Below, in pieces: positions 247 to 15,689 of a DNA stretch of 64,000 nt. The translations under genes were made by a program, and so were the position numbers. The notes under the pieces were generated by a model, which saw only the letters and a program-made list of their open reading frames with translations, was not told where the DNA came from and ran no database searches. How positions within the stretch are numbered: position 1 is the first letter of the stretch; each line of letters begins with the position of its first letter. Source of the DNA: Bacteroidetes bacterium GWF2_33_38 (lineage in GTDB: Bacteria > Bacteroidota > Bacteroidia > Bacteroidales > GWF2-33-38); assembly GCA_001769505.1 (NCBI GenBank), contig MEOF01000041.1:1-64000 (forward strand), written 5' to 3'.

Positions 247-508
247 TTAGTTCCTCTCAATTTTTTGCAAGTCTTTATCAAAATTGATATTAGTTTTATG
301 CAACAATATTTTTAGTCCCTTTTATTTTTCTAATCTTTGTCGCTTTATTTGAAAGAACCAATTCTTTATACAACTCTATGCCATCTTAAATTAAATGGTT
401 AAGAAACTAATAGCCTTATTCAGGTCGGTTTCCTTTTTGGATTTCTTGTTTCCCTTCTCGGAACATAAACTATAGAGTTTTTTTTCCACTTTTTATTTCA
501 AATATTTT
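247..508 (-). pseudogene. Decayed second copy of the HEPN-like gene (C-terminal part)
   Basis: Read on the minus strand, this stretch aligns in frame with the C-terminal third of the intact protein at 11083-11865. Examples are REGKQEI against REGKQEI, then an 18-codon spacer of equal length in both copies, then DGIELYKELVLSNKA against DGIELHKQLALSNEA, and IRKIKGTKNIVA against IRKVRGTKNIIA. The copy is dead: it has in-frame stops (for example before FMFREG and before DGIEL) and a frameshift near 296, after which the match resumes as NINFD against KLNFD. The upstream boundary near 508 is where similarity fades. No start or N-terminal half is visible. Confidence 0.75.
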
Positions 509-553
509 AATCATGTGCTTATAAGTAAACCATTTCTCAGCCTAAGTCAAGCT

Positions 554-1234
554 TTAAGCTAACAAATTTTCAAGCTTTGATTTCCATTTTTCCCAATCGG
601 GCATTTCCTTGGTTTGTAAATCAATAAATCTTTGAGTGTGATTATGATGAATTAAATGACACAACTCGTGAGTTATTACATATTCAATACATGGTTTAGG
701 AGCTTTTATTAATTCCGGATTTAAGAATATTTTTCCTTTTTCGGTACAACTTCCCCATCTTGTAGACATTTCTTGAATGTAAATTTCAGATGGTTCAACA
801 TTGTATTTCTTAAAACGTTGAATTATCGGTTCTGCAATTGATGAAAATTTTTCTTTAGCTTTTTCTCTATACCATTGAATTAGCAACTCTTTTGTTTTAG
901 CTTTATTTTTCGTCTTTACTTCGATATATCGCCCTTTATATTTTACCTCGTTCTTAGAATTAATAGTAACTTTCAATAAATATTGTCGTCCTAAGTATAA
1001 ATGCGATTCTCCACTCACATATTTTCTTTCGGGCATTTTTGGATAAAATGATAAAAAAAAGTTCTGTTGTCTAATTATCCATGGAGCTCGTTTCCTAATT
1101 TTTTCTTTTACTTTTTCCAATTTGGTATCACTTGGAGCTTTTACCATAACTTGCATATCGGGAGAAACGGAAATCCCAAGAGATTTCCTGTCGGAATACT
1201 CCAAATTGAATTCAATTTTTCTGGAACCAAACAT
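554..1234 (-). CDS. YgjP/SprT-like zinc metallopeptidase (DUF45)
   Basis: This 226-residue protein of the YgjP-like family (M48-type metallopeptidase) has the zinc site HELCH at about residues 189-193, preceded by YVIT, and a TRWGSC motif near 157 that is typical of the family. I start it at 1234 (MFGSRKIEF). The in-frame ATG at 1288 would add 18 residues encoded by an AATTGACAATT-type repeat, which looks like extraneous sequence. It lies at the distal end of the restriction operon, downstream of hsdR and the S23-type gene. YgjP-like genes often follow hsdR, so a link to the restriction system is plausible; its substrate is unknown. Confidence 0.85.
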   Translation of the reverse strand: MFGSRKIEFNLEYSDRKSLGISVSPDMQVMVKAPSDTKLEKVKEKIRKRAPWIIRQQNFFLSFYPKMPERKYVSGESHLYLGRQYLLKVTINSKNEVKYKGRYIEVKTKNKAKTKELLIQWYREKAKEKFSSIAEPIIQRFKKYNVEPSEIYIQEMSTRWGSCTEKGKIFLNPELIKAPKPCIEYVITHELCHLIHHNHTQRFIDLQTKEMPDWEKWKSKLENLLA

Positions 1235-1235
1235 A

Positions 1236-1272
1236 ATAAATTGAGAATTGACAGTTGACAATTGACAATTTT
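1236..1272. repeat. AATTGACAATT-type short repeat cluster
   Basis: Tandem near-copies of TTGACAATTGACA run through the junction between the S23-type gene and the metallopeptidase gene. The same word family occurs at 1637-1668 and inside hsdS at 10494-10530. Such repeats extend open frames artificially and make upstream start codons unreliable. Confidence 0.6.
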
Positions 1273-1284
1273 TGGACTTATCAC

Positions 1285-1638
1285 TCATCTTTTTTCTTTT
1301 GAGGTTTTGACGATTGAAATTAACAATTTTAAAATTTCTTTTAAATCAGAAATTATTGAATCATATTGTGTTTCATCTATATAGCCCGATTTGTAAAGCA
1401 ACTCAACCCAATAATCTGATTCATTAGCCTCTTTTAATGAGATTGACAATTTATGTATAAAGTCTGCTTTGCTTTCAGCTTGTTCGGCTTCACGAATTAA
1501 CGCACCTATTGAAGTTCCGCTTCTCAGCAATTGTTTACTTAGAACAAATTCTTTTTTTTCATTTGTAAGATATTGATACAACTTTATTATCCGTAAAGCA
1601 AACTCGAAACTTTTATCTTTTATTATATTTTCTTTCAT
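1285..1638 (-). CDS. Four-helix-bundle protein (S23 / IVS family)
   Basis: This protein of about 117 residues belongs to the small helical family first described from 23S rRNA intervening sequences (TIGR02436 type). The core LLRSGTSIGALIREAEQAES, the later SISLKEANESDYWVELL and an all-helical composition show the family. I prefer the ATG at 1638 (MKENIIKDKS); the longer frame from 1665 begins inside an AATTGTCAATT repeat next to the hsdR stop. It is transcribed with hsdR and the metallopeptidase. Family members are common accessory genes in Bacteroidota; their biochemical role is not established. Confidence 0.85.
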   Translation of the reverse strand: MKENIIKDKSFEFALRIIKLYQYLTNEKKEFVLSKQLLRSGTSIGALIREAEQAESKADFIHKLSISLKEANESDYWVELLYKSGYIDETQYDSIISDLKEILKLLISIVKTSKEKR

Positions 1639-1668
1639 TGTCAATTGTCCATTCAAAATTATCAATTA
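1637..1668. repeat. AATTGTCAATTGTCC-type short repeat
   Basis: This second copy of the AATTG-rich repeat family sits exactly at the end of hsdR and the beginning of the S23-type gene. Confidence 0.5.
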
Positions 1669-4600
1669 TTTTTTGTATCGTATTTTTGCAACTTCAACAC
1701 ATTTTTCAGCCATGATTTCAGCTTCATCAATTGGCATTTTCAATTCATCAATCAGATATTCACCGATGTAAAAATTAATTCGTCGAACTATATCGAGTTT
1801 TTGAGGCCAATCAACAACTTGATGCTTTTTAATAATTGCATCGGTTTCAACTGCAAAAGTTTCGCATTGCTCTGGTTTCAAATTTGTTGATGAAACAATT
1901 AAACGATAGAATGGAATGCAATCTTCAATATTTTGTAATTTTAATGGAATATCATCTCCTTTTTTTGTAACAGCTTGTTCTCTATATTCTTTTAATTTCT
2001 TTAATGCTGCAAGTTCTGAAATACGTAATGCTCGTAAGTCTGAAATAGTTTGCTGAATTAACTCCGAAAGCTTTTTAAAGAATACAGGGTCTTCATCCAT
2101 GTGTTCCGAAATGTGCTTTGTTGTACGACTTGCTATTGTTTCGGCTTTTGCTCTTGCACCAATCACTTTCTCAAGTTCGTTTTCAAAAGCTTCTGCATCT
2201 AAAATACTTACTTGTTCGGTTAATCGAATCACTTCTTCGGTAGTTACATGCTGATCGAGAAGTTTTTGAAGTTGTTTTTCATACTTTTTAAAATCAACAT
2301 CATCAGAATATGTATTGATAATTGAATTACGCAAAGAAGTATAAAATTTAATGTGTTTTTTATAAAGAGATTTTGTCTTTTCAGCTGTATTGTTTTCAAA
2401 TTCTAATGACGAAAAAGCTATTTTCAGGCATTTTGCAAAAGCACTAAATTTTTGATAGAAGTCTGTTCGGATTGCTTCGTCGGCTAATAAGCTTGCATAA
2501 CTTACAACATCGTATTTGCTTGGAATTTCTTTAAAAATATCGTTTAATACAGAATTTAATTGAGGTAGCTTTTCAATCTCTTTTTTAATATCTGTAAATG
2601 TGCCTTCAAGTTCTGATTCTTCAAATTCAGATAAGTTAGAATATGTGTTCATGGCTTCGTCTAATTCGCCAATAATTCCTTCGTAATCTATTATAAATCC
2701 AAACTCTTTACCTTGTGATACACGATTTACACGAGCAATTGCCTGTAATAAATTGTGACCAACCAACTTTTTGCAAACATACATTACAACAACTCTTGGC
2801 TCGTCAAAACCTGTAAGTAATTTATGCACAACTATTAACAAGTCAGGATAATCGGTTTTTTTAAATTGGTTAATAAGACTTTTTTCAAAATCTTTACCAT
2901 ATTTCGCTTCCATTTTTTTCCAAAAAACAACAACTTCATCAGTTGGCTCTTCGTGAACATCTTCATTTCCATCTCTATCATCGGGCGAAGACATAATAAC
3001 TTCAGTTGTAACTTTTCCAATTAAATCAAATGCTTTTTTGTATTTAACGGCTGTAGCTTTGTCTTGAGTTACAACCATTCCTTTGAAACCGCTTCGTTCG
3101 CCAGTTTTGTCTAAACCCCAATTTTGTGTAAAATGGTCAGAAATATCGCGAGCAATTTCGTCAATTCGTTGTTCAGTTTTTTCAATCAAATTTGCCTTGC
3201 TGAATTTCTTTTTCAAATCGGCTCTTTGATATTCTGATAATGGCTCTGAAACACTATCAAAACCTCGGTCTAAAGCTTTTTGATTTACATTTTGCATAGC
3301 GTGACGACCTTCATAAATTATTGGAACAATTGCCTTATCTTCAACAGCTTGTAAAATTGTGTAAGCATCAATTATTCCTCCAAATTTTTGTGCTGTACTT
3401 TTTTCTTTTTTCATCAACGGAGTTCCTGTGAAAGCCAAGAAACAAGCATTTGGCAGTACTTTTTGCATTTTCACATTGAAAGTTCCATATTGAGTTCGGT
3501 GACCTTCGTCAATTAATACAAAAATGTTGTTTGATGTTAGTGGCGAACTTCCTAATTGATTGACTGCTGCTTCAAATTTATTTATAATTGTTGTAACAAC
3601 TGCATCGCTTTTGCTTTTCAATAAATCAATTAATTGATTGCCTGTTTTTGCATTCAAAACTGGAACATCAACTTTACCAAAAGTGTCTGTTATTTGTGTG
3701 TCTAAATCTACTCTGTCGGTAACTAAAACAATTTTGGGATTTCGCACGGTTTGATAAATTTTTCGAGCCAACATTGCCATTGTTAACGATTTGCCACTTC
3801 CTTGTGTGTGCCAAATAACTCCGCCTTTTCGTTTTCCTTGATCGAAATTCTGAATTCGTTGAATAATTTTTTTTATTGCAAAATATTGCTGATAACGTGC
3901 AATTTTCTTGAATTTTCCTGCTTCAAAAATAATGTAATCTTTGGCTAATTCTAATAACCTTTCGGGACGACACAAATTATATAAATACTCATCTTGCTCA
4001 CTTTTTAATTCAATTTCCGATGTTTTTGGCTCTTTCCACGTTGCCCAAAATTCTTCTTTTGTATCAGTTGTTGCATATTTTGCGTGTAAAGTTGAAGTGC
4101 TTAATAACAATTGACTATAAACATATAAATGTCTAATTCCATCTTCTTGCTGATTGCGAATATGTTGCGAAATTGCTTGAGAAATTGGCTCTTTCATATC
4201 TGGACGTTTGCATTCTAAAATACAAAGTGGAATTCCATTTACAAAAAGCACAATATCGGGGCGAAAATGTTCTTTGCTTCCTGTTCGCATAACGCTATAT
4301 TCTTCGGTTACGTGAAAAACATTATTTTCGATATTTTCCCAATCAATATATTTTAATGTGAAACTTTTTTTATCGCCATCAATGCTTTGTTCAAATGCTT
4401 TTCCTAATGTTAATCGCTCATAAGCAACTTGACAAGCTGAAATATATCCTTCGTGCATTGGCAAATCTTTGAGAGCCAAAATTCCGTTTTCAATATTTGC
4501 ATCGCTAAAAATTGTTGTTTTTGTTGAACTTAATCTTGGAATATTAATTTCTTTTAGTTGCTTTCGCAAAATATCTTCTAATAAAACATTTGTTGTTTTA

Positions 4601-4713
4601 CCGCCACGCAATTCCAATGCTTGTTCAGGATTTAAATACGTATAACCAAGCTTTTGCAATAGTTGCAAAGCTGGAATTTGGCTGATTTGGTCTTCTTTGA
4701 ATGAACTTGTCAT
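1666..4713 (-). CDS. hsdR: Type I restriction enzyme R subunit HsdR
   Basis: This 1015-residue motor and nuclease subunit of a type I restriction-modification complex translocates DNA with ATP and cuts it. The N-terminal PD-(D/E)xK nuclease shows as PDIVLFVNGIPLCILECKRP at about residues 150-170. The helicase core follows: Walker A in HTQGSGKS near 301, a DEGH box near 403, TGTPL soon after, and an ARVNRVSQGKEFG motif VI region. The C-terminal helical part is present and the length is normal. The start MTSSFKEDQ fits the family. It is separated from hsdM and hsdS by about 5-8 kb of unrelated genes, which is unusual because the three subunits are normally adjacent. Confidence 0.97.
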   Translation of the reverse strand: MTSSFKEDQISQIPALQLLQKLGYTYLNPEQALELRGGKTTNVLLEDILRKQLKEINIPRLSSTKTTIFSDANIENGILALKDLPMHEGYISACQVAYERLTLGKAFEQSIDGDKKSFTLKYIDWENIENNVFHVTEEYSVMRTGSKEHFRPDIVLFVNGIPLCILECKRPDMKEPISQAISQHIRNQQEDGIRHLYVYSQLLLSTSTLHAKYATTDTKEEFWATWKEPKTSEIELKSEQDEYLYNLCRPERLLELAKDYIIFEAGKFKKIARYQQYFAIKKIIQRIQNFDQGKRKGGVIWHTQGSGKSLTMAMLARKIYQTVRNPKIVLVTDRVDLDTQITDTFGKVDVPVLNAKTGNQLIDLLKSKSDAVVTTIINKFEAAVNQLGSSPLTSNNIFVLIDEGHRTQYGTFNVKMQKVLPNACFLAFTGTPLMKKEKSTAQKFGGIIDAYTILQAVEDKAIVPIIYEGRHAMQNVNQKALDRGFDSVSEPLSEYQRADLKKKFSKANLIEKTEQRIDEIARDISDHFTQNWGLDKTGERSGFKGMVVTQDKATAVKYKKAFDLIGKVTTEVIMSSPDDRDGNEDVHEEPTDEVVVFWKKMEAKYGKDFEKSLINQFKKTDYPDLLIVVHKLLTGFDEPRVVVMYVCKKLVGHNLLQAIARVNRVSQGKEFGFIIDYEGIIGELDEAMNTYSNLSEFEESELEGTFTDIKKEIEKLPQLNSVLNDIFKEIPSKYDVVSYASLLADEAIRTDFYQKFSAFAKCLKIAFSSLEFENNTAEKTKSLYKKHIKFYTSLRNSIINTYSDDVDFKKYEKQLQKLLDQHVTTEEVIRLTEQVSILDAEAFENELEKVIGARAKAETIASRTTKHISEHMDEDPVFFKKLSELIQQTISDLRALRISELAALKKLKEYREQAVTKKGDDIPLKLQNIEDCIPFYRLIVSSTNLKPEQCETFAVETDAIIKKHQVVDWPQKLDIVRRINFYIGEYLIDELKMPIDEAEIMAEKCVEVAKIRYKK

Positions 4714-5164: not shown

Positions 5165-5704
5165 TTATAAAGTTTCATTATATTCATTATACCATTGTTT
5201 ATATTTTTGTTTTTCACTATAATCAACAGAAAACGAAGTTATTAGCATTAAATCTGGTTTTATTTCCCGTATGATTACAATGAAATGTTTTTCTTCGTAC
5301 CAATAATATTGTTGGTTATAGCCATCATCATTTAATCGCTCGAAATATTTAATTCTTACATCACTTACATTCTTAATAATTGGTCTTATCCAGTGAATTT
5401 TATTTGCTCTCTCTTTGTCAAAATCTCTTTTTTCTTTATATTTACTTTCTCGTGTAATAATATGCTCAAATCCCTTAAACTTTCCCTTGCATACAGGATG
5501 CATAGAAATATTTCTATTAAAAGACATTTCGATACCATTTATTACAATTGGATTATTTACAATATCATTTAGAAAAATACCATACATTCTATATAGCTGG
5601 TCTCTAGTTGGACCATCAATAGATAAATCTTCAAATAAGTCGCATAAATTATCTAATTCATCGAACTCATCATCAATATCTGATAAATTATTAAAATCAA
5701 TCAT
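5165..5704 (-). CDS. Hypothetical protein, possible BECR-fold nuclease
   Basis: This 179-residue protein has an acidic N-terminus (about the first 35 residues). Its C-terminal half reads like a small RNase domain: HPVCKGKFKGFEHIITR, then KRDFDKERANKIHWIRPII, then an aromatic strand region ending in ITSFSVDY. The spacing of His, Arg and an aromatic strand near the end resembles barnase/EndoU/colicin-like (BECR) toxin nucleases; this is pattern recognition, not a proven match. Its start overlaps the DUF3800 stop by four bases (ATGA), indicating translational coupling. It may be an effector or partner of the DUF3800 protein. Confidence 0.6.
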   Translation of the reverse strand: MIDFNNLSDIDDEFDELDNLCDLFEDLSIDGPTRDQLYRMYGIFLNDIVNNPIVINGIEMSFNRNISMHPVCKGKFKGFEHIITRESKYKEKRDFDKERANKIHWIRPIIKNVSDVRIKYFERLNDDGYNQQYYWYEEKHFIVIIREIKPDLMLITSFSVDYSEKQKYKQWYNEYNETL

Positions 5705-6426
5705 TTTGAAGAGCTTATTTGAAAATCGAAAATATTAAACTTAGACTCCCATGGAATTGTTCCATCATCAAGTGAATAACCGGTTTTCTTTTCGAGGTAA
5801 TTAATTACTTCACACTTAATTTTAGATGCGTTTGGTTTTATGTTTTCTTTTCTTGATTTGTAAGTTATTGCACCAATAAATAAATCGGTTAGTTGCAACA
5901 ATTCATTTTCGTGAGAATGAATATGTTGAAAATATTTGAATGGTGATTTACCTTCATTTTTATTGTTTAAACAATTTGCTAATTCGGTAAGCCGTTCTTT
6001 TCCTCTTGTATCTTTTATATCTAAAATCACTCTATAAATTTCATCCTTTTGATTAATATATTTATTATTCAACAATAGATATATCATCTTGTAATAGAAG
6101 GCATTATGATCTCCTCTATTGAATTTTTCGTGATCGAGGTTTTGTTTGTTTTTAACTAAAACACAGCGAAAAGTAATATTGCTCGAAAAAAAGTAATCAA
6201 TTAATTCTTTGTATAATGGGAATCGAGACATTGAAAGTTTATTCCATTTTAATTCTGTTGGTGCTTTATGCTTTAGTTTAATTTTTTTTATGTCATCTTT
6301 TATAATTGGATATTTTTCATATTCAATTTTTGTATAACCAATACACATTATTTGTATTCCATCATGTTCTAAATGACAGCTTTCATCAATATAAAGGTTG
6401 AACATTTTGTTAGTCATTTGATTCAT
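5701..6426 (-). CDS. DUF3800 domain protein (RNase H-like fold)
   Basis: This 241-residue protein has the DUF3800 signatures: an N-terminal acidic strand FNLYIDESCH near residue 12, a central LDIKDTRGKERL, and the late motif LLQLTDLFIGA near 175-185. In this family the conserved acids are thought to form an RNase H-like active site, but no reaction is established. It begins 4 bases after the AlbA_2 gene stop and overlaps the following 179-residue gene, so the three form a tight unit. DUF3800 genes recur in accessory regions; a defence role here is inference. Confidence 0.8.
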   Translation of the reverse strand: MNQMTNKMFNLYIDESCHLEHDGIQIMCIGYTKIEYEKYPIIKDDIKKIKLKHKAPTELKWNKLSMSRFPLYKELIDYFFSSNITFRCVLVKNKQNLDHEKFNRGDHNAFYYKMIYLLLNNKYINQKDEIYRVILDIKDTRGKERLTELANCLNNKNEGKSPFKYFQHIHSHENELLQLTDLFIGAITYKSRKENIKPNASKIKCEVINYLEKKTGYSLDDGTIPWESKFNIFDFQISSSK

Positions 6427-9027: not shown

Positions 9028-9048
9028 TTTTATAAAAGTTTTTGGTTT

Positions 9049-9068
9049 GGGCGTATTGCAATACGTCG
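9049..9068. repeat. REP-like palindrome, imperfect copy
   Basis: This is a near-perfect copy of GGGCGTATTGCAATACGCCC, differing in the right arm. It sits in the 47-base gap between the RAYT gene and the preferred start of the SEC-C gene, where REP elements mobilised by RAYTs are commonly found. Confidence 0.7.
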
Positions 9069-9074
9069 GCACAT

Positions 9075-9830
9075 TTATTTTTTATGAAATTTATCTTCGT
9101 CCCATTTCAGTGGGTTATTTTTAATATAATTAGATATATTCTGATATGATTTTTTGTTTCTAATAATATGCTCCCAGTAATTTTTTTGCCATATTGATTT
9201 TGATAAATCGATGTTTATTTCTGTTAGATTTTCTGATGTGGGGATTTCAGAGAGAGAGATTTCTGTGGAGATTCCTGTGGGGGCGTATTGCAATACGCCC
9301 GTACTGCTGCTGCTGCTGCTATTTTTAATTTTATTTTCTTCATAAATCAATTCTTTTATTCTTTTTGTTGTTGCTCCTTTGTATCCTCTAATTATTGCTC
9401 CTATTGTTTGTGATGGTGATTTGAATTTTTCTGTCGGGGTCGGGGCATGTTTCAATATGTCGTTTTCTGTCGGGGTGTATTGCAATGTTTTATTTTCTGT
9501 CGGGGCGTATTGCAATGTTTTATTTTCTGTCGGGGCGTATTGCAATACGCCCTCTACGGAATAATTAATTTGAATAATTCCGTGCATATGATTTGGCATT
9601 ATTATATATTCTTGTAATGATATATTTTTTCTTATTTCGACGTTTTTTATCCATTCTTCTTGGGCTATTTTACCTAATGGATTTAATATCATTTCGCCAT
9701 TTTTAATTTTACCAAATATTTCTGTTCTATTTTGTGTTACGATGGTAATAAAATATAATCCTTCCTCAGAATAATCGTATTCTTTTAATCTGATTGATTT
9801 GCGGTTATGTTTTTGTGGATTATATTTCAT
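9075..9830 (-). CDS. REP-associated tyrosine transposase (RAYT, Y1/HUH family)
   Basis: This 251-residue Y1 transposase of the IS200/IS605-related RAYT class nicks and joins single-stranded palindromic REP sequences. The N-terminus shows YFITIVTQNRTEIFG, the HUH motif lies in MPNHMHGIIQI, and the catalytic Tyr is likely in NYIKNNPLKW near the C-terminus. The middle is odd. Between the HUH motif and the TIGAIIRGYKG helix lies a repeat insert reading QYAPTENKTL several times, and further on a serine run plus another LQYAPTG, all encoded by copies of the palindrome GTATTGCAATAC. The frame stays open through all copies, so the gene appears intact. Confidence 0.9.
   Translation of the reverse strand: MKYNPQKHNRKSIRLKEYDYSEEGLYFITIVTQNRTEIFGKIKNGEMILNPLGKIAQEEWIKNVEIRKNISLQEYIIMPNHMHGIIQINYSVEGVLQYAPTENKTLQYAPTENKTLQYTPTENDILKHAPTPTEKFKSPSQTIGAIIRGYKGATTKRIKELIYEENKIKNSSSSSSTGVLQYAPTGISTEISLSEIPTSENLTEINIDLSKSIWQKNYWEHIIRNKKSYQNISNYIKNNPLKWDEDKFHKK
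9281..9300. repeat. Perfect 20-bp REP-like palindrome inside the RAYT gene
   Basis: GGGCGTATTGCAATACGCCC is its own reverse complement. It encodes part of the VLQYAPTG stretch. A (GCT)5 run encoding serines follows directly at 9306-9320. Confidence 0.85.
9432..9552. repeat. 30-bp tandem repeats ending in a REP-like palindrome
   Basis: Units containing TTTTCTGTCGGGGYGTATTG recur with a 30-base period (units begin near 9469, 9499 and 9529), with a more degenerate copy upstream from about 9432. The last copy completes the perfect palindrome GGGCGTATTGCAATACGCCC at 9533-9552. The period is a multiple of three, so the RAYT frame is kept and a ten-residue peptide repeat results. Confidence 0.85.
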
Positions 9831-9863: not shown

Positions 9864-11090
9864 TTAAATTTTCAATCTCTTTTTCCCAGTTAATAAAACC
9901 TGCATCAATCCTTTTTTCTGCTCTTTTAGTTTTTCGAGTTTGGCTTTGTAGCTTTGTATTTCTTTATCGGCAGTTTGGAGAACTTTGGCAATAGCGGTTT
10001 GCTCTTCGGTAGACGGTAAATTTAATTTTACATTGCTTATAATATTGTTATATAATCTTTGAATAGTACCTCCTTCGGAGTCATAACGAATTATCTTATA
10101 TACATAAAATAAGTATTCGTTTATTACTTTTGAATTGTCATGACTTATCCAAACAATATTTGAATCCTGAAAATATGCAGGAATACCGTCGTAGACTACT
10201 GTTCTGCCTAATGTTCCAGCAGCAGAAATTAAAATATCACCCTTGCTTGGAAATGAAAATCTGGTTTTGTAATCGTTATAAAGCTCTTTTGAAATATATG
10301 CATCTGCTATTTTTCCGAATGTTCCAATTTTATAAAAAGGAATATCGCCTTTATGTTTAGTTTCATGATTGAAAACTCTTCTACACATTTTTATTTTCCC
10401 AATATTGCCTAACTTATATTCTTTCCAATCCCCACTAAATCCTTTCAAACGTTTTTTCCCAGTTAACAAATTTTGCATTAACCATTTCTTTCTTAATTGT
10501 AAATTGTCAATTATCAATTGTAAATTAGAAATGGCTTTATCCCAAGTGCTGAGAACTTCGGCTATGCGAATTTGTTCGGGGAGTGGTGGAATTGGAAGTT
10601 TTAGTTTTGATAATTCGCTTGAATAAATATGAACGACGGAATTTCCTTGTCCTAAAATTCTTTTTTGTTTTTTTGCAATATCTGTTTCCAAAGCATAAGA
10701 TAAACATTCAGCAGAAAAACTCTCTTTTGTAGATAAAATAATTATATCACCACCAGCATAAGCTTTTTCACTACCCAAATATGCAACAGACTTTCCAATT
10801 TCTTCAACTGTTTCACCTGAACCAGCAAAAAGAATATCTCCATTTTTGATTTCTTGACTTTCGTTGGCTACATCATTTGAAATAAAAGATTTGAATTCTT
10901 TAATAATAAAATCGTGAGTGGTGTATATTTCTCCATAACGAATACAAGGAAAACCGTTTTCAATTACTTGTTCTTTTAAAATTCCTTTTCCTTTAGAAAA
11001 AGTACCAATTTCGCTTAATTCTTTCACTTCCCAATCGCTAGGAATTTTGCCAATTGGAGAGTTTTTATATGTGGTTTGGTTGTTATTCAT
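9864..11090 (-). CDS. hsdS: Type I restriction specificity subunit HsdS (two target domains)
   Basis: This 408-residue subunit of full length has two target-recognition domains separated by the conserved coiled spacer LPEQIRIAEVLSTWDKAISN (about residues 165-185) and ending with EEQTAIAKVLQTADKEIQ and LLTGKKRLKI. It sets the DNA sequence recognised by HsdM and HsdR. Part of the central helix (NLQLIIDNLQLRKKW) is encoded by an AATTG-rich repeat like those near 1240 and 1640. Its start overlaps the stop of the HEPN-like gene by eight bases, indicating coupling. A second, half-length specificity gene lies upstream of hsdM. Confidence 0.95.
   Translation of the reverse strand: MNNNQTTYKNSPIGKIPSDWEVKELSEIGTFSKGKGILKEQVIENGFPCIRYGEIYTTHDFIIKEFKSFISNDVANESQEIKNGDILFAGSGETVEEIGKSVAYLGSEKAYAGGDIIILSTKESFSAECLSYALETDIAKKQKRILGQGNSVVHIYSSELSKLKLPIPPLPEQIRIAEVLSTWDKAISNLQLIIDNLQLRKKWLMQNLLTGKKRLKGFSGDWKEYKLGNIGKIKMCRRVFNHETKHKGDIPFYKIGTFGKIADAYISKELYNDYKTRFSFPSKGDILISAAGTLGRTVVYDGIPAYFQDSNIVWISHDNSKVINEYLFYVYKIIRYDSEGGTIQRLYNNIISNVKLNLPSTEEQTAIAKVLQTADKEIQSYKAKLEKLKEQKKGLMQVLLTGKKRLKI
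10494..10530. repeat. AATTG-rich repeat within hsdS coding sequence
   Basis: AATTGTAAATTGTCAATTAT and the following CAATTGTAAATT lie in the segment coding for the central HsdS coiled coil. They belong to the same word family as the intergenic repeats at 1236-1272 and 1637-1668. Spacer-length changes in this part of HsdS are known to alter type I recognition spacing. Confidence 0.6.
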
Positions 11091-11865
11091 TAAGATTTAT
11101 ATTTTTTTCTAATAGTTCGTTAATATCAAAATTTAGTTTAACTGCAATTATGTTTTTAGTTCCTCTAACTTTTCTAATTCTTACAGCTTCATTTGATAAT
11201 GCTAATTGTTTATGAAGTTCTATTCCGTCTTTTATTAATCTATAAAGTTGCCAGTGGTCATAAGCAAAAGGTTCTCCGCTTTTAATTTCTTGTTTACCTT
11301 CACGCAAGTGATAAATTAATTTATCGGGTTTGGTTTTCTCAAATGGAAAATTCCACTTTCCATTTGAATGTATTGTATTTCTAAAATTATTTAGCAATTC
11401 TAATGAGTTTGCTAATTGAGAATATTTTTCTTTCATTTTTGTATAATATCCTTTTCCAGAAATGGTTTGTTCATATTCTTTTCTGCAATATTCAAATATA
11501 CTCGACATTTTCACAATTCCATTAAATGTTATATATGAACGTTGATTTTCAAATAAATGTCCAAGCGTAACTTCAATACCAGATGCTCTCATATAACTAT
11601 TTACATCATAAACATTTATCAAAGAATAGCAATCGTAAATCATACTCAATAAAGTTTGATGATAATACCCAAATTGTTCTAATCTAAAATCAATTAAATG
11701 TTCTTCAATATCAAGTTTTGCTTTTACTTCATTTTCGCATTCTGAATTAAATTCTAATAAACGAAACAGCAATGACAAACAGGTATTTATATGTCTATCT
11801 AATTTTAAATAGTACTTCCCTTTGTGAAAATCTTGTTTGCTTATGTATTTTATTGGTTTAGTCAA
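11083..11865 (-). CDS. Hypothetical helical protein, HEPN-like candidate
   Basis: This 260-residue, mostly helical protein is not a family I can name. A segment NFRNTIHSNGKW near residues 160-172 resembles the Arg-x-x-x-His motif of HEPN-type RNases, but the spacing is one short of the commonest form, so this is a weak lead. The only start that fits is TTG at 11865. It is translationally coupled to hsdS. A second, decayed copy lies at 247-508 at the far end of the island. The association with hsdS suggests an accessory or anti-phage role; that is inference. Confidence 0.65.
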   Translation of the reverse strand: MTKPIKYISKQDFHKGKYYLKLDRHINTCLSLLFRLLEFNSECENEVKAKLDIEEHLIDFRLEQFGYYHQTLLSMIYDCYSLINVYDVNSYMRASGIEVTLGHLFENQRSYITFNGIVKMSSIFEYCRKEYEQTISGKGYYTKMKEKYSQLANSLELLNNFRNTIHSNGKWNFPFEKTKPDKLIYHLREGKQEIKSGEPFAYDHWQLYRLIKDGIELHKQLALSNEAVRIRKVRGTKNIIAVKLNFDINELLEKNINLNE

Positions 11866-11895: not shown

Positions 11896-12192
11896 TCACA
11901 GCCTTGGAACTTCCTCTCCCGAATGTATATGTCGGTGATGAAGCCAGGTTTTTTTTGCTCCTTTGCCAAGTTCTATCATTTCGAGGATATCCTCGAAATG
12001 ATTCAAAACCGCATTATTACTATTCTTACAAGCATCTTTTGCTTTTTCAATAACTGGCTTAAAATGTCTATATTCTGAATATTCTAAAACTTTAGACAAG
12101 TCTCTGGCTGACCAAAATTCATTTCCTTTTTCATCAACTTTTTTTATTTGCTCAAAAGCTGTTTGATTATGTTTTTGGAGCTTGTTATTCAT
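11896..12192 (-). pseudogene. dinD: Truncated DinD / BRO-N family gene
   Basis: This 98-codon frame matches only the N-terminal part of DNA-damage-inducible protein D: FWSARDLSKVLEYSEYRHFKPVIEKA, then ACKNSNNAVLNHFEDILEMIELGKGAK. Full-length DinD proteins are about 270-290 residues and continue with a conserved SRYACYLI region that is absent here. After GKGAK the frame runs into unrelated residues (KTWLHHRHIHSGEEVPRL). The break looks like a recombination junction, so I treat it as a remnant, although a short BRO-N DNA-binding protein could still be made. Confidence 0.75.
11977..12000. repeat. 24-bp perfect palindrome CATTTCGAG-N6-CTCGAAATG within dinD
   Basis: Arms CATTTCGAG and CTCGAAATG flank GATATC, giving a perfect 24-base palindrome. 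It codes for HFEDILEM in the DinD fragment. A sister inverted repeat with the same arms and spacer length lies just upstream of the gene at 12220-12247. Confidence 0.7.
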
Positions 12193-12794: not shown

Positions 12795-14354
12795 TTAAGA
12801 CATTAATTCTTTTAAATATTTATTCATTTCAGTTTGCACGGATTTTAATTCGTCTTCGAGTTTTTCAATTTCTCGTTGAACATCTGAAATATTCACTTCA
12901 GTTTCTTCCTCAAAAGTGTCAACATAACGAGGAATATTCAAATTGAAATCGTTTTCGCTAATTTCTTCAAAAGTGGCAACGTAACTATATTTTTCTTCAA
13001 TTACTCCATCCTTTAATTTCCCTTCGTTAAATTGTCTATATGTTTCAACAATTTTATTGATGTGATTTTCATTCAGTTTATTTTGATTTTTTGCACTATC
13101 GTATTGTTGACTACTATCGATGAATAAAACGTTTTTATTTTTGTCTTTCGCTTTATTAAAGACCAAAATTGCAGCTGGAATTCCAGTTCCAAAGAAAAGA
13201 TTTGCTGGCAATCCAATTACAGCTTCTAAAATATTTTCCTCAATAGTTTTTTGACGTATTTTGCCTTCACTACTTCCACGAAATAAAACTCCGTGTGGAA
13301 CTACAACTCCAACTTTTCCTGTATCGTTTATAGTTTCAATCATGTGACTTATAAAAGCCCAATCTCCTTTGCTTTTTGGTGGAATTCCACGCCAAAAACG
13401 ATTGTATCTATCGGTTTCAGGATCAAAATTAGTTCCTGATTTATTGTCTTCTTTATCGTCAACTTTGCCCCATTTATCTAGCGAAAAAGGTGGATTTGCT
13501 ACAACTGTATCAAATTTCATTAATGCATCGCCTTCTTTCAATTTTGGATTTCTAATTGTATCTCCCCAACGAATTGTTGCACTATCGAAACCGTGCAAAA
13601 ACATATTCATCACAGCCAAAGCCCAAGTGCTTCCGTTTGCTTCTTGTCCATAAAGTGAAAAATTATCGCTTCCAACTTCTTTTCCTGCTTTTATAAGCAA
13701 TGAACCGGAACCGCAAGTTGGGTCGCATATTTTTGCTCCCGATTTTGATTTTGTAAGTTTTGCAAGTAAAGTTGAAACTTCACTTGGAGTGAAAAATTCT
13801 CCGGCTTTTTTTCCTGCATCACTAGCAAAATTGGAAATTAAAAATTCGTAAGCATCACCAATAATGTCGTTCTTTTCTAAATGAGAAGGAGAAAGATTGA
13901 GCTCACTAAAATCGAGAATTAAATTTTTAAGTCTATTGTTTTTATCTTTAGTATCACCCAAATTACTGCTGTTAAACGAAATATTTCTAAAAATACCACT
14001 TCCATCTTCACTACTTAGTTTTTCTCTATTGGCTTCTTCAAGATCGGAAAGTGCAATATCAATTAATTCTCCTAAATTAATTTCATTTCTACCTTCATAC
14101 AAAAACTCAAAACTACTGTTAGACGGAACTATAAAACGCTCCATTTTCATTGCTCTTTCGGTTCGCTCTTCATCTCCTTTGTATTTTTCTAAATATTGAA
14201 TTCGTTTTTCTTTATTAACATCGCTCACATATTTTAGGAAAAGCATTGTGAGTATATAATCTTTGTATTGAGATGGATCAATAACGCTTCTAAATGTATC
14301 GCATGCTTTCCATACAATTTGATTAATTTCTTTTTGAGTAATTTTATTTGCCAT
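12795..14354 (-). CDS. hsdM: Type I DNA methyltransferase subunit HsdM
   Basis: This 519-residue N6-adenine methyltransferase has an N-terminal HsdM_N helical domain (MANKITQKEINQIVWKACD onward), the SAM site DPTCGSGSLLI near residue 211 and the catalytic NPPF near 286. The C-terminal coiled coil (EIEKLEDELKSVQTEMNKYL) contacts HsdS. The length is normal and no disruption is seen. It starts three bases after the stop of a half-length specificity gene, so the two form one operon. Confidence 0.97.
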   Translation of the reverse strand: MANKITQKEINQIVWKACDTFRSVIDPSQYKDYILTMLFLKYVSDVNKEKRIQYLEKYKGDEERTERAMKMERFIVPSNSSFEFLYEGRNEINLGELIDIALSDLEEANREKLSSEDGSGIFRNISFNSSNLGDTKDKNNRLKNLILDFSELNLSPSHLEKNDIIGDAYEFLISNFASDAGKKAGEFFTPSEVSTLLAKLTKSKSGAKICDPTCGSGSLLIKAGKEVGSDNFSLYGQEANGSTWALAVMNMFLHGFDSATIRWGDTIRNPKLKEGDALMKFDTVVANPPFSLDKWGKVDDKEDNKSGTNFDPETDRYNRFWRGIPPKSKGDWAFISHMIETINDTGKVGVVVPHGVLFRGSSEGKIRQKTIEENILEAVIGLPANLFFGTGIPAAILVFNKAKDKNKNVLFIDSSQQYDSAKNQNKLNENHINKIVETYRQFNEGKLKDGVIEEKYSYVATFEEISENDFNLNIPRYVDTFEEETEVNISDVQREIEKLEDELKSVQTEMNKYLKELMS

Positions 14355-14356
14355 AA

Positions 14357-14923
14357 CTAATTATTGATTGCTGAGATTAAACTATTCTGAATGTACTTAT
14401 CTTTAATTTGTTCTAATTTTTTGTAGATATTTTGCTCTTTTTTTTGCAAAAAAGCAATTTTAATAATGAGGTTTTGTTTTTCAAATGAAGGAATTTTTAA
14501 TTCAAGTTCCATCAAATCTACTTTTGATATTGAGGGCATTGAAGAACCTCTTGCTTTAGATTTTAGTATTTCTTGAGTTTTTGGATGGTTTAAGTACCAG
14601 CAAATAAAATCAGAAGCAATACTATTGTGAAATTCTTTTTTTATTTTTATTATTAGAAATGTAGAAGAAGCAACACATCGACCAATTTTATTGTCATATT
14701 TTACCGCAAAATTTTTTGTGCCCTTTGCTGCAAATAGAATATCTCCTTCAAGTAAAAGATGCTTTTCTATTTGAGGGTTTAATGATAAATCAGGAATGAA
14801 AGTGGAAATAAAAACTCCATTCTCGTCGAAGTGTTTTACTTGCAAATACATAATTTCGCCAAAACTTTCTGACTTTGTGTAAATTCCGGTTTGAATATTT
14901 GCAATTTGAGTTAAAGTTCTCAT
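14357..14923 (-). CDS. Half-length HsdS-like specificity protein (single target domain)
   Basis: This 188-residue protein has one target-recognition domain (TLTQIANIQTGIYTK, then LLLEGDILFAAKGTKN, then SSMPSISKVDLMELELKIP) followed by one coiled segment (KIAFLQKKEQNIYKKLEQIK). That is half of a normal HsdS. The start at 14923 (MRTLTQI) fits the family better than the ATG at 14965. It is the first gene of the operon, directly before hsdM. Half-size S proteins can pair to make a symmetric specificity unit, so this may offer a second specificity for the same HsdM/HsdR. Confidence 0.85.
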   Translation of the reverse strand: MRTLTQIANIQTGIYTKSESFGEIMYLQVKHFDENGVFISTFIPDLSLNPQIEKHLLLEGDILFAAKGTKNFAVKYDNKIGRCVASSTFLIIKIKKEFHNSIASDFICWYLNHPKTQEILKSKARGSSMPSISKVDLMELELKIPSFEKQNLIIKIAFLQKKEQNIYKKLEQIKDKYIQNSLISAINN

Positions 14924-14965
14924 TATGATATTGTCTCTTGCTTTCAGGATAACAAAAATACTCAA

Positions 14966-15274: not shown

Positions 15275-15297
15275 GAATGATTTGTGATTTAATCCAG

Positions 15298-15689
15298 TGG
15301 AGCTGCCGGGACTCGAACCCGGGTCCAAACAAGAAACCCAAAGGCTTTCTACATGTTTAGCCATTTCTTAATTTTCGTGAGCAGACCGGCAAGTGGCAAC
15401 CAAACTGAACCTTATTCCCTTTATTTTCGCCAAACAATCAGGACTTTCATTCGACTATCTCTAACAAACTTGTGCCTCCTATTCCATTATCGTAGAGAAT
15501 GACTCTGGAGAGACAACCCGTCTCAGCTCCTAGAGCCGAGAGAGCTTAATTTACTAAACTTCAATTAAGCAGCGAGTGCGTAGTTATTTTCGCCAATTAT
15601 AGTTTTGTAATACAGTTTTACGAGTTATACTACAATGCTCGACATGCTTACATTTCGATTCATCTTGCTGTCAAAACCGTGTCAACCCC
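15298..15689 (-). ncRNA. ssrA: Transfer-messenger RNA (tmRNA)
   Basis: tmRNA rescues stalled ribosomes. The 5' end GGGGTTG (from 15689) pairs over seven positions with CAGCTCC at the 3' end (15299-15305), and the T-arm reads GGGTTCGAGTCCC. The tag frame lies at 15594-15565 and encodes GENNYALAA then a stop, the Bacteroidota-type tag. The terminal CCA is not encoded: after GCTCCA the gene continues CTGG. Length is about 392 nt, with a normal one-piece layout. The accessory island begins just beyond its 3' side, a favourite integration site. Confidence 0.95.

Follow-up and report, generated by a model that had tools for sequence, protein, structure and literature searches.

A truncated pseudogene of a rare cargo gene at the edge of a type I restriction cluster in Bacteroidetes bacterium GWF2_33_38

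Among the described systems closest to this locus are HEPN RNases associated with restriction-modification operons, such as PrrC with PrrI and similar pairs (PMC3710099). Most, not all, HEPN families carry an Rx4-6H motif (PMC3710099). Insertion sequences of the IS21 family have ends with a terminal CA and multiple terminal repeats (PMC10122671).

The sequence analysed here, referred to as the window, is a 64,000-nucleotide stretch of the Bacteroidetes bacterium GWF2_33_38 genome, and its base 1 is the first base of contig C41. It contains a type I restriction cluster with an intact cargo gene and, near the contig start, a decayed partial copy of this gene, which we call the relic. Dead gene fragments are common at island edges, and by itself the relic is of little weight. 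Like truncated duplicate pseudogenes at the edges of genomic islands, it combines stops, a probable frameshift, a lost end and a neutral pattern of substitution with an adjacent insertion sequence; there is no difference of principle between them, the parent family of the relic being unusually rare and unnamed.

The restriction cluster and its cargo gene

The genes of the cluster on which the comparison depends are the following:
554-1288, minus strand: intact ygjP-like metallopeptidase gene, 3' partner of hsdR (Pfam PF01863, E 3e-56)
1666-4713, minus strand: hsdR (HSDR_N and SWI2/SNF2; PADLOC REase_I)
9864-11090, minus strand: hsdS (Methylase_S, E 1.5e-43)
11083-11865, minus strand: intact parent gene of the relic, encoding a 260-aa protein of a rare family in which FRNTIHSNG is conserved; the last 8 nt of the gene overlap the start of hsdS
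12795-14354, minus strand: hsdM (N6_Mtase, E 1.1e-104)

The ygjP gene forms part of the hsdR cluster and overlaps the preceding gene. In 28 of 29 YgjP relatives of the same taxonomic order, hsdR is located directly upstream of ygjP, so that the relic, on the far side of this conserved pair, lies immediately beyond the point where the restriction cluster naturally ends. No member of the relic family was found in the neighbourhoods of the 29 same-order YgjP relatives. A gene resembling those of 23S rRNA-intervening-sequence proteins is wedged between hsdR and ygjP both in the window and in L047.

The parent protein had no significant match in Pfam, NCBIfam, PADLOC, PHROGs or the PDB sequences, and its family is unnamed in these libraries; family relatives were likewise absent from the plasmids, phages, viral contigs and genome-contig collection searched. 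Among about 1,290 genomes sampled, three other members were identified, 51-58% identical to the window protein:
L017:7800-8546: family member G625
L018:1905-2690: family member G740
L026:3530-4315: family member G947

By inspection only, the neighbours of these members, one each, are an HNH-nuclease-like gene, a transposase-resembling gene and a group II intron reverse-transcriptase-like gene. G736, G618 and G123 also gave weak hits to the profile (E 6e-4 to 7e-3), which we did not count as members; with a profile built from all four members, G736 and G123 reached just 7-11 bits and the G618 locus was unlisted.

The earlier note on this DNA had labelled the parent gene HEPN-like. As with the HEPN RNases of restriction-modification operons (PMC3710099), the parent gene is located inside an hsdM-hsdS-hsdR cluster, overlaps the start of hsdS and encodes an invariant RNTIH. 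Unlike those RNases (PMC3710099), its family has an Rx3H instead of an Rx4-6H arrangement and matches no HEPN profile, and the other three members have no restriction genes beside them in the DNA read around each. The only invariant Arg-His pair of the family is R162-N-T-I-H166, with three residues between Arg and His; the canonical Rx4-6H motif is absent from the parent gene, as is a profile match to any known HEPN family. A single-sequence structure model of the parent protein reached a pLDDT of 34, and the helices that it predicts are unreliable. Based on the Rx3H spacing and the lack of a library match, HEPN is a possibility and not a result, and the HEPN identity of the parent gene is doubtful.

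Several further features of the island were observed. A DUF3800 gene and its partner (5165-6426) correspond to PDC-M04A/PDC-M04B, a candidate defence pair in PADLOC (E 2e-85 and 3e-68); a diverged second pair is located in the same genome (C47:33464-35568) after two HsdS-like matches, so that type I restriction genes accompany the pair more than once. A repeat cluster at 9040-9562, with the core GGGCGTATTGCAATACGCCC and inverted copies, is found in and beside the gene at 9075-9830, whose product has the look of a REP-associated transposase, judged by eye only. Adjoining the intact parent gene is a fragment, 98 aa long, of a gene for DNA-damage-inducible protein D (11896-12192), and hsdM is preceded by a second, short hsdS-like gene (14357-14965; 202 aa with one specificity domain). 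At its other end, the island borders on a tmRNA gene (15295-15689, tag peptide GENNYALAA), at which no direct repeats marking integration were found.

The relic downstream of ygjP

The region between the start of the contig and the ygjP stop can be divided into five parts:
1-83: end of a multicopy IS21-like insertion sequence, with shared ends and GTGGTC repeats; boundary at 83/84 and contig start at base 1
84-256: spacer from the insertion sequence to the relic, not hsdS by its alignment scores against hsdS
257-298, minus strand: probable frameshifted C-terminal end of the relic (HKTNINFDKDLQKIERN and a stop), from a two-row profile match at 257-502
299-493, minus strand: core of the relic, 65 codons against residues 177-241 with in-frame stops, from DNA alignment, protein search and tblastn
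494-553, minus strand: gap from the relic to the ygjP stop, with no detectable remnant of residues 1-176 by sequence searches

The earlier note had proposed that the C-terminal third of the 11083-11865 gene is present here as a second, dead copy, and this is borne out by significant homology to the intact gene together with stops inside the match. On the minus strand, 299-493 encodes a decayed counterpart of residues 177-241 of the intact protein, approximately 50% identical to it. In the DNA alignment, 276-473 against 11124-11319 scored 72, while 500 dinucleotide shuffles averaged 26 and did not exceed 45, and the highest score among 688 control segments of the window was 41. When the 11083-11865 protein was searched against the entire genome of origin (3.93 Mb, 70 contigs), it matched two places only, the intact gene and the relic, the latter at 293-484 on the minus strand with E 1.4e-13, 50% identity and five stops (2 TAG and 3 TAA). 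A tblastn search restricted to positions 1-560 aligned residues 177-241 with 493-299 at 51% identity (E 5.6e-17). The relic region is AT-rich, and both ends of the originally claimed match are not significant by themselves; nevertheless, chance similarity of AT-rich sequence is refuted by the shuffles, the controls and the genome-wide E value, and its probability is negligible. The relic is thus a real, ordinary truncated pseudogene fragment.

The 65 codons of the core align with the intact gene without gaps, including its weakly conserved middle, in agreement with the equal-length spacer reported previously. The in-frame stops that had been described are likewise present; the single frameshift claimed with them is plausible near 299-305, because the next frame reads HKTNINFDKDLQKIERN followed by a stop. 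The stretch 253-300 tested alone was not significant (p about 0.3). The two-row profile, which itself contained the relic, widens the match to 257-502, corresponding to residues 175-256, a less sure extent than that of the core; the relic therefore has a probable frameshifted C-terminal end reaching to about 257. A 20-nt repeat at chance level (245-264 and 11154-11173) probably contributed to the earlier edge at 247. On the opposite side, a profile match running to 658 or 661 overlies the intact ygjP gene and was taken as spurious. The relic and ygjP point in one direction, and no more than about 60 nt separate the ygjP stop from the start of the relic; no remnant of the missing first 175 or so residues was found between ygjP and the relic, nor elsewhere in the genome.

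Bases 1-83 are identical to the start of contig C6 and to the end of contig C19, and all three sequences diverge after ..TTTTCCA. This 83-bp end has the features of the IS21 family, namely a terminal CA and multiple repeats, here four GTGGTC copies 23-24 nt apart. As for the IS21-type flank previously proposed, the multicopy end, its terminal CA and its repeats stood, while an IstB search detected no istB of this element in the assembly, which lacks the element interior (istA/istB). The element is accordingly termed IS21-like, a designation that its terminal repeats suggest. Since base 1 is the contig start, no sequence can be read upstream of it, on the far side of the insertion sequence.

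Descent of the relic and loss of constraint

The three intact relatives, G625, G740 and G947, were used as outgroups. With them included, the relic clusters with the window gene. In the 52 best-aligned residues, it shares 30 identities with the window gene, 22 with G625, 16 with G740 and 16 with G947. The relic has eight private residues in common with the window gene, and no residue links it to the other members against that gene. At informative residues, the outgroup state was kept by the window gene and changed in the relic in ratios of 17:0, 13:0 and 12:0, and in the trees the relic branch is long and the window-gene branch about zero. The relic thus derives from the gene of its own lineage, as its description as a second copy had implied, and is not a distant paralogue.

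The changes on the relic branch, from 52-56 codons and three outgroups, are evenly distributed over the three codon positions (10/13/8, 10/13/13 and 11/11/11), the pattern expected from loss of constraint; the numbers are small, and all outgroups agree. On the window-gene branch, under the same limits, the changes are fewer and mostly spare position 2 (6/2/10, 3/1/6 and 1/2/8). A third-position excess (33 of 74) had first suggested long selection on both copies; this reading was rejected, as splitting the changes by branch assigns the excess mainly to the intact gene. The grouping with the window gene, the one-sided changes and the even codon positions therefore argue that the relic is an own-lineage duplicate without constraint. 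Given its DNA divergence of about 36% from the window gene over the best-aligned block, the relic is an old copy, and the substitution pattern indicates that constraint was lost at or soon after the duplicate arose.

Origin of the relic

Very probably, the relic is a truncated pseudogene that arose as an own-lineage copy of the cargo gene placed after ygjP and decayed neutrally while the intact copy stayed under selection. A copy of the 11083-11865 gene, or of its direct ancestor, would have been placed directly behind ygjP, facing the same way, lacking about the first 175 residues and under little or no selection at that place. Neutral substitution, stops and a frameshift would then have eroded it, with purifying selection acting on the intact copy, and the relic itself would be functionless. 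Most economically, the junction between the ygjP end and the inside of the gene may mark where an old tandem duplication or rearrangement joined two parts of the island, presumably cut later by a deletion and the insertion of the IS21-like element. A tandem-duplication joint would, however, be expected to carry a decayed hsdS directly behind the relic, of which there is no sign in 84-256.

A stronger form of this explanation, not exclusive of it, holds that the full island was once duplicated in tandem and that the joint alone is left. Such an event would produce exactly the arrangement observed, with ygjP followed by the C-terminal part of the gene in the same orientation. However, 84-256 scored 13 as a decayed hsdS, which is at shuffle level, while simulated copies with an equal degree of decay averaged 47, with a minimum of 14; additionally, no other decayed island gene was found in 84-256. 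The assembled genome also lacks second close copies of hsdS, the Schlafen-like gene, the DUF3800 gene and its partner, the best other matches being 27-38% identical. A complete former duplication is thus doubtful, and the formerly longer island put forward in the earlier note, for which no second copy of hsdS or other island genes was found, is unproven.

The main rival to an own-lineage duplication is the separate acquisition of a nearly identical copy, in which an arriving restriction-modification cluster, carrying its own copy, disrupted one of the same subfamily that was already resident, and only the C-terminal end of the resident survived. The patchy and apparently mobile character of the family, with three other genomes in about 1,290 and unlike contexts, and the position of the relic outside the conserved hsdR-ygjP pair are in line with two acquisitions. 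Nevertheless, the sequence from which the relic derives was very close to the window gene, no residue favours any other member, and the N-terminal half of a resident copy was undetected across the other side of the cluster and in the whole genome, so that this alternative is unlikely. In a combined proposal, which we regard as improbable, a type I restriction cluster would formerly have been duplicated in tandem together with its cargo, with the relic marking the joint, and the parent family would be an uncharacterised effector linked to restriction, perhaps a branch of HEPN whose motif has shifted to Rx3H.

Under the preferred explanation, a truncated own-lineage copy, the relic provides an internal control, in which the cargo gene inside the hsd cluster was selected at the protein level and the copy outside it rotted. 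This comparison between the two sequences suggests that the intact cargo gene probably does something useful in its operon position.
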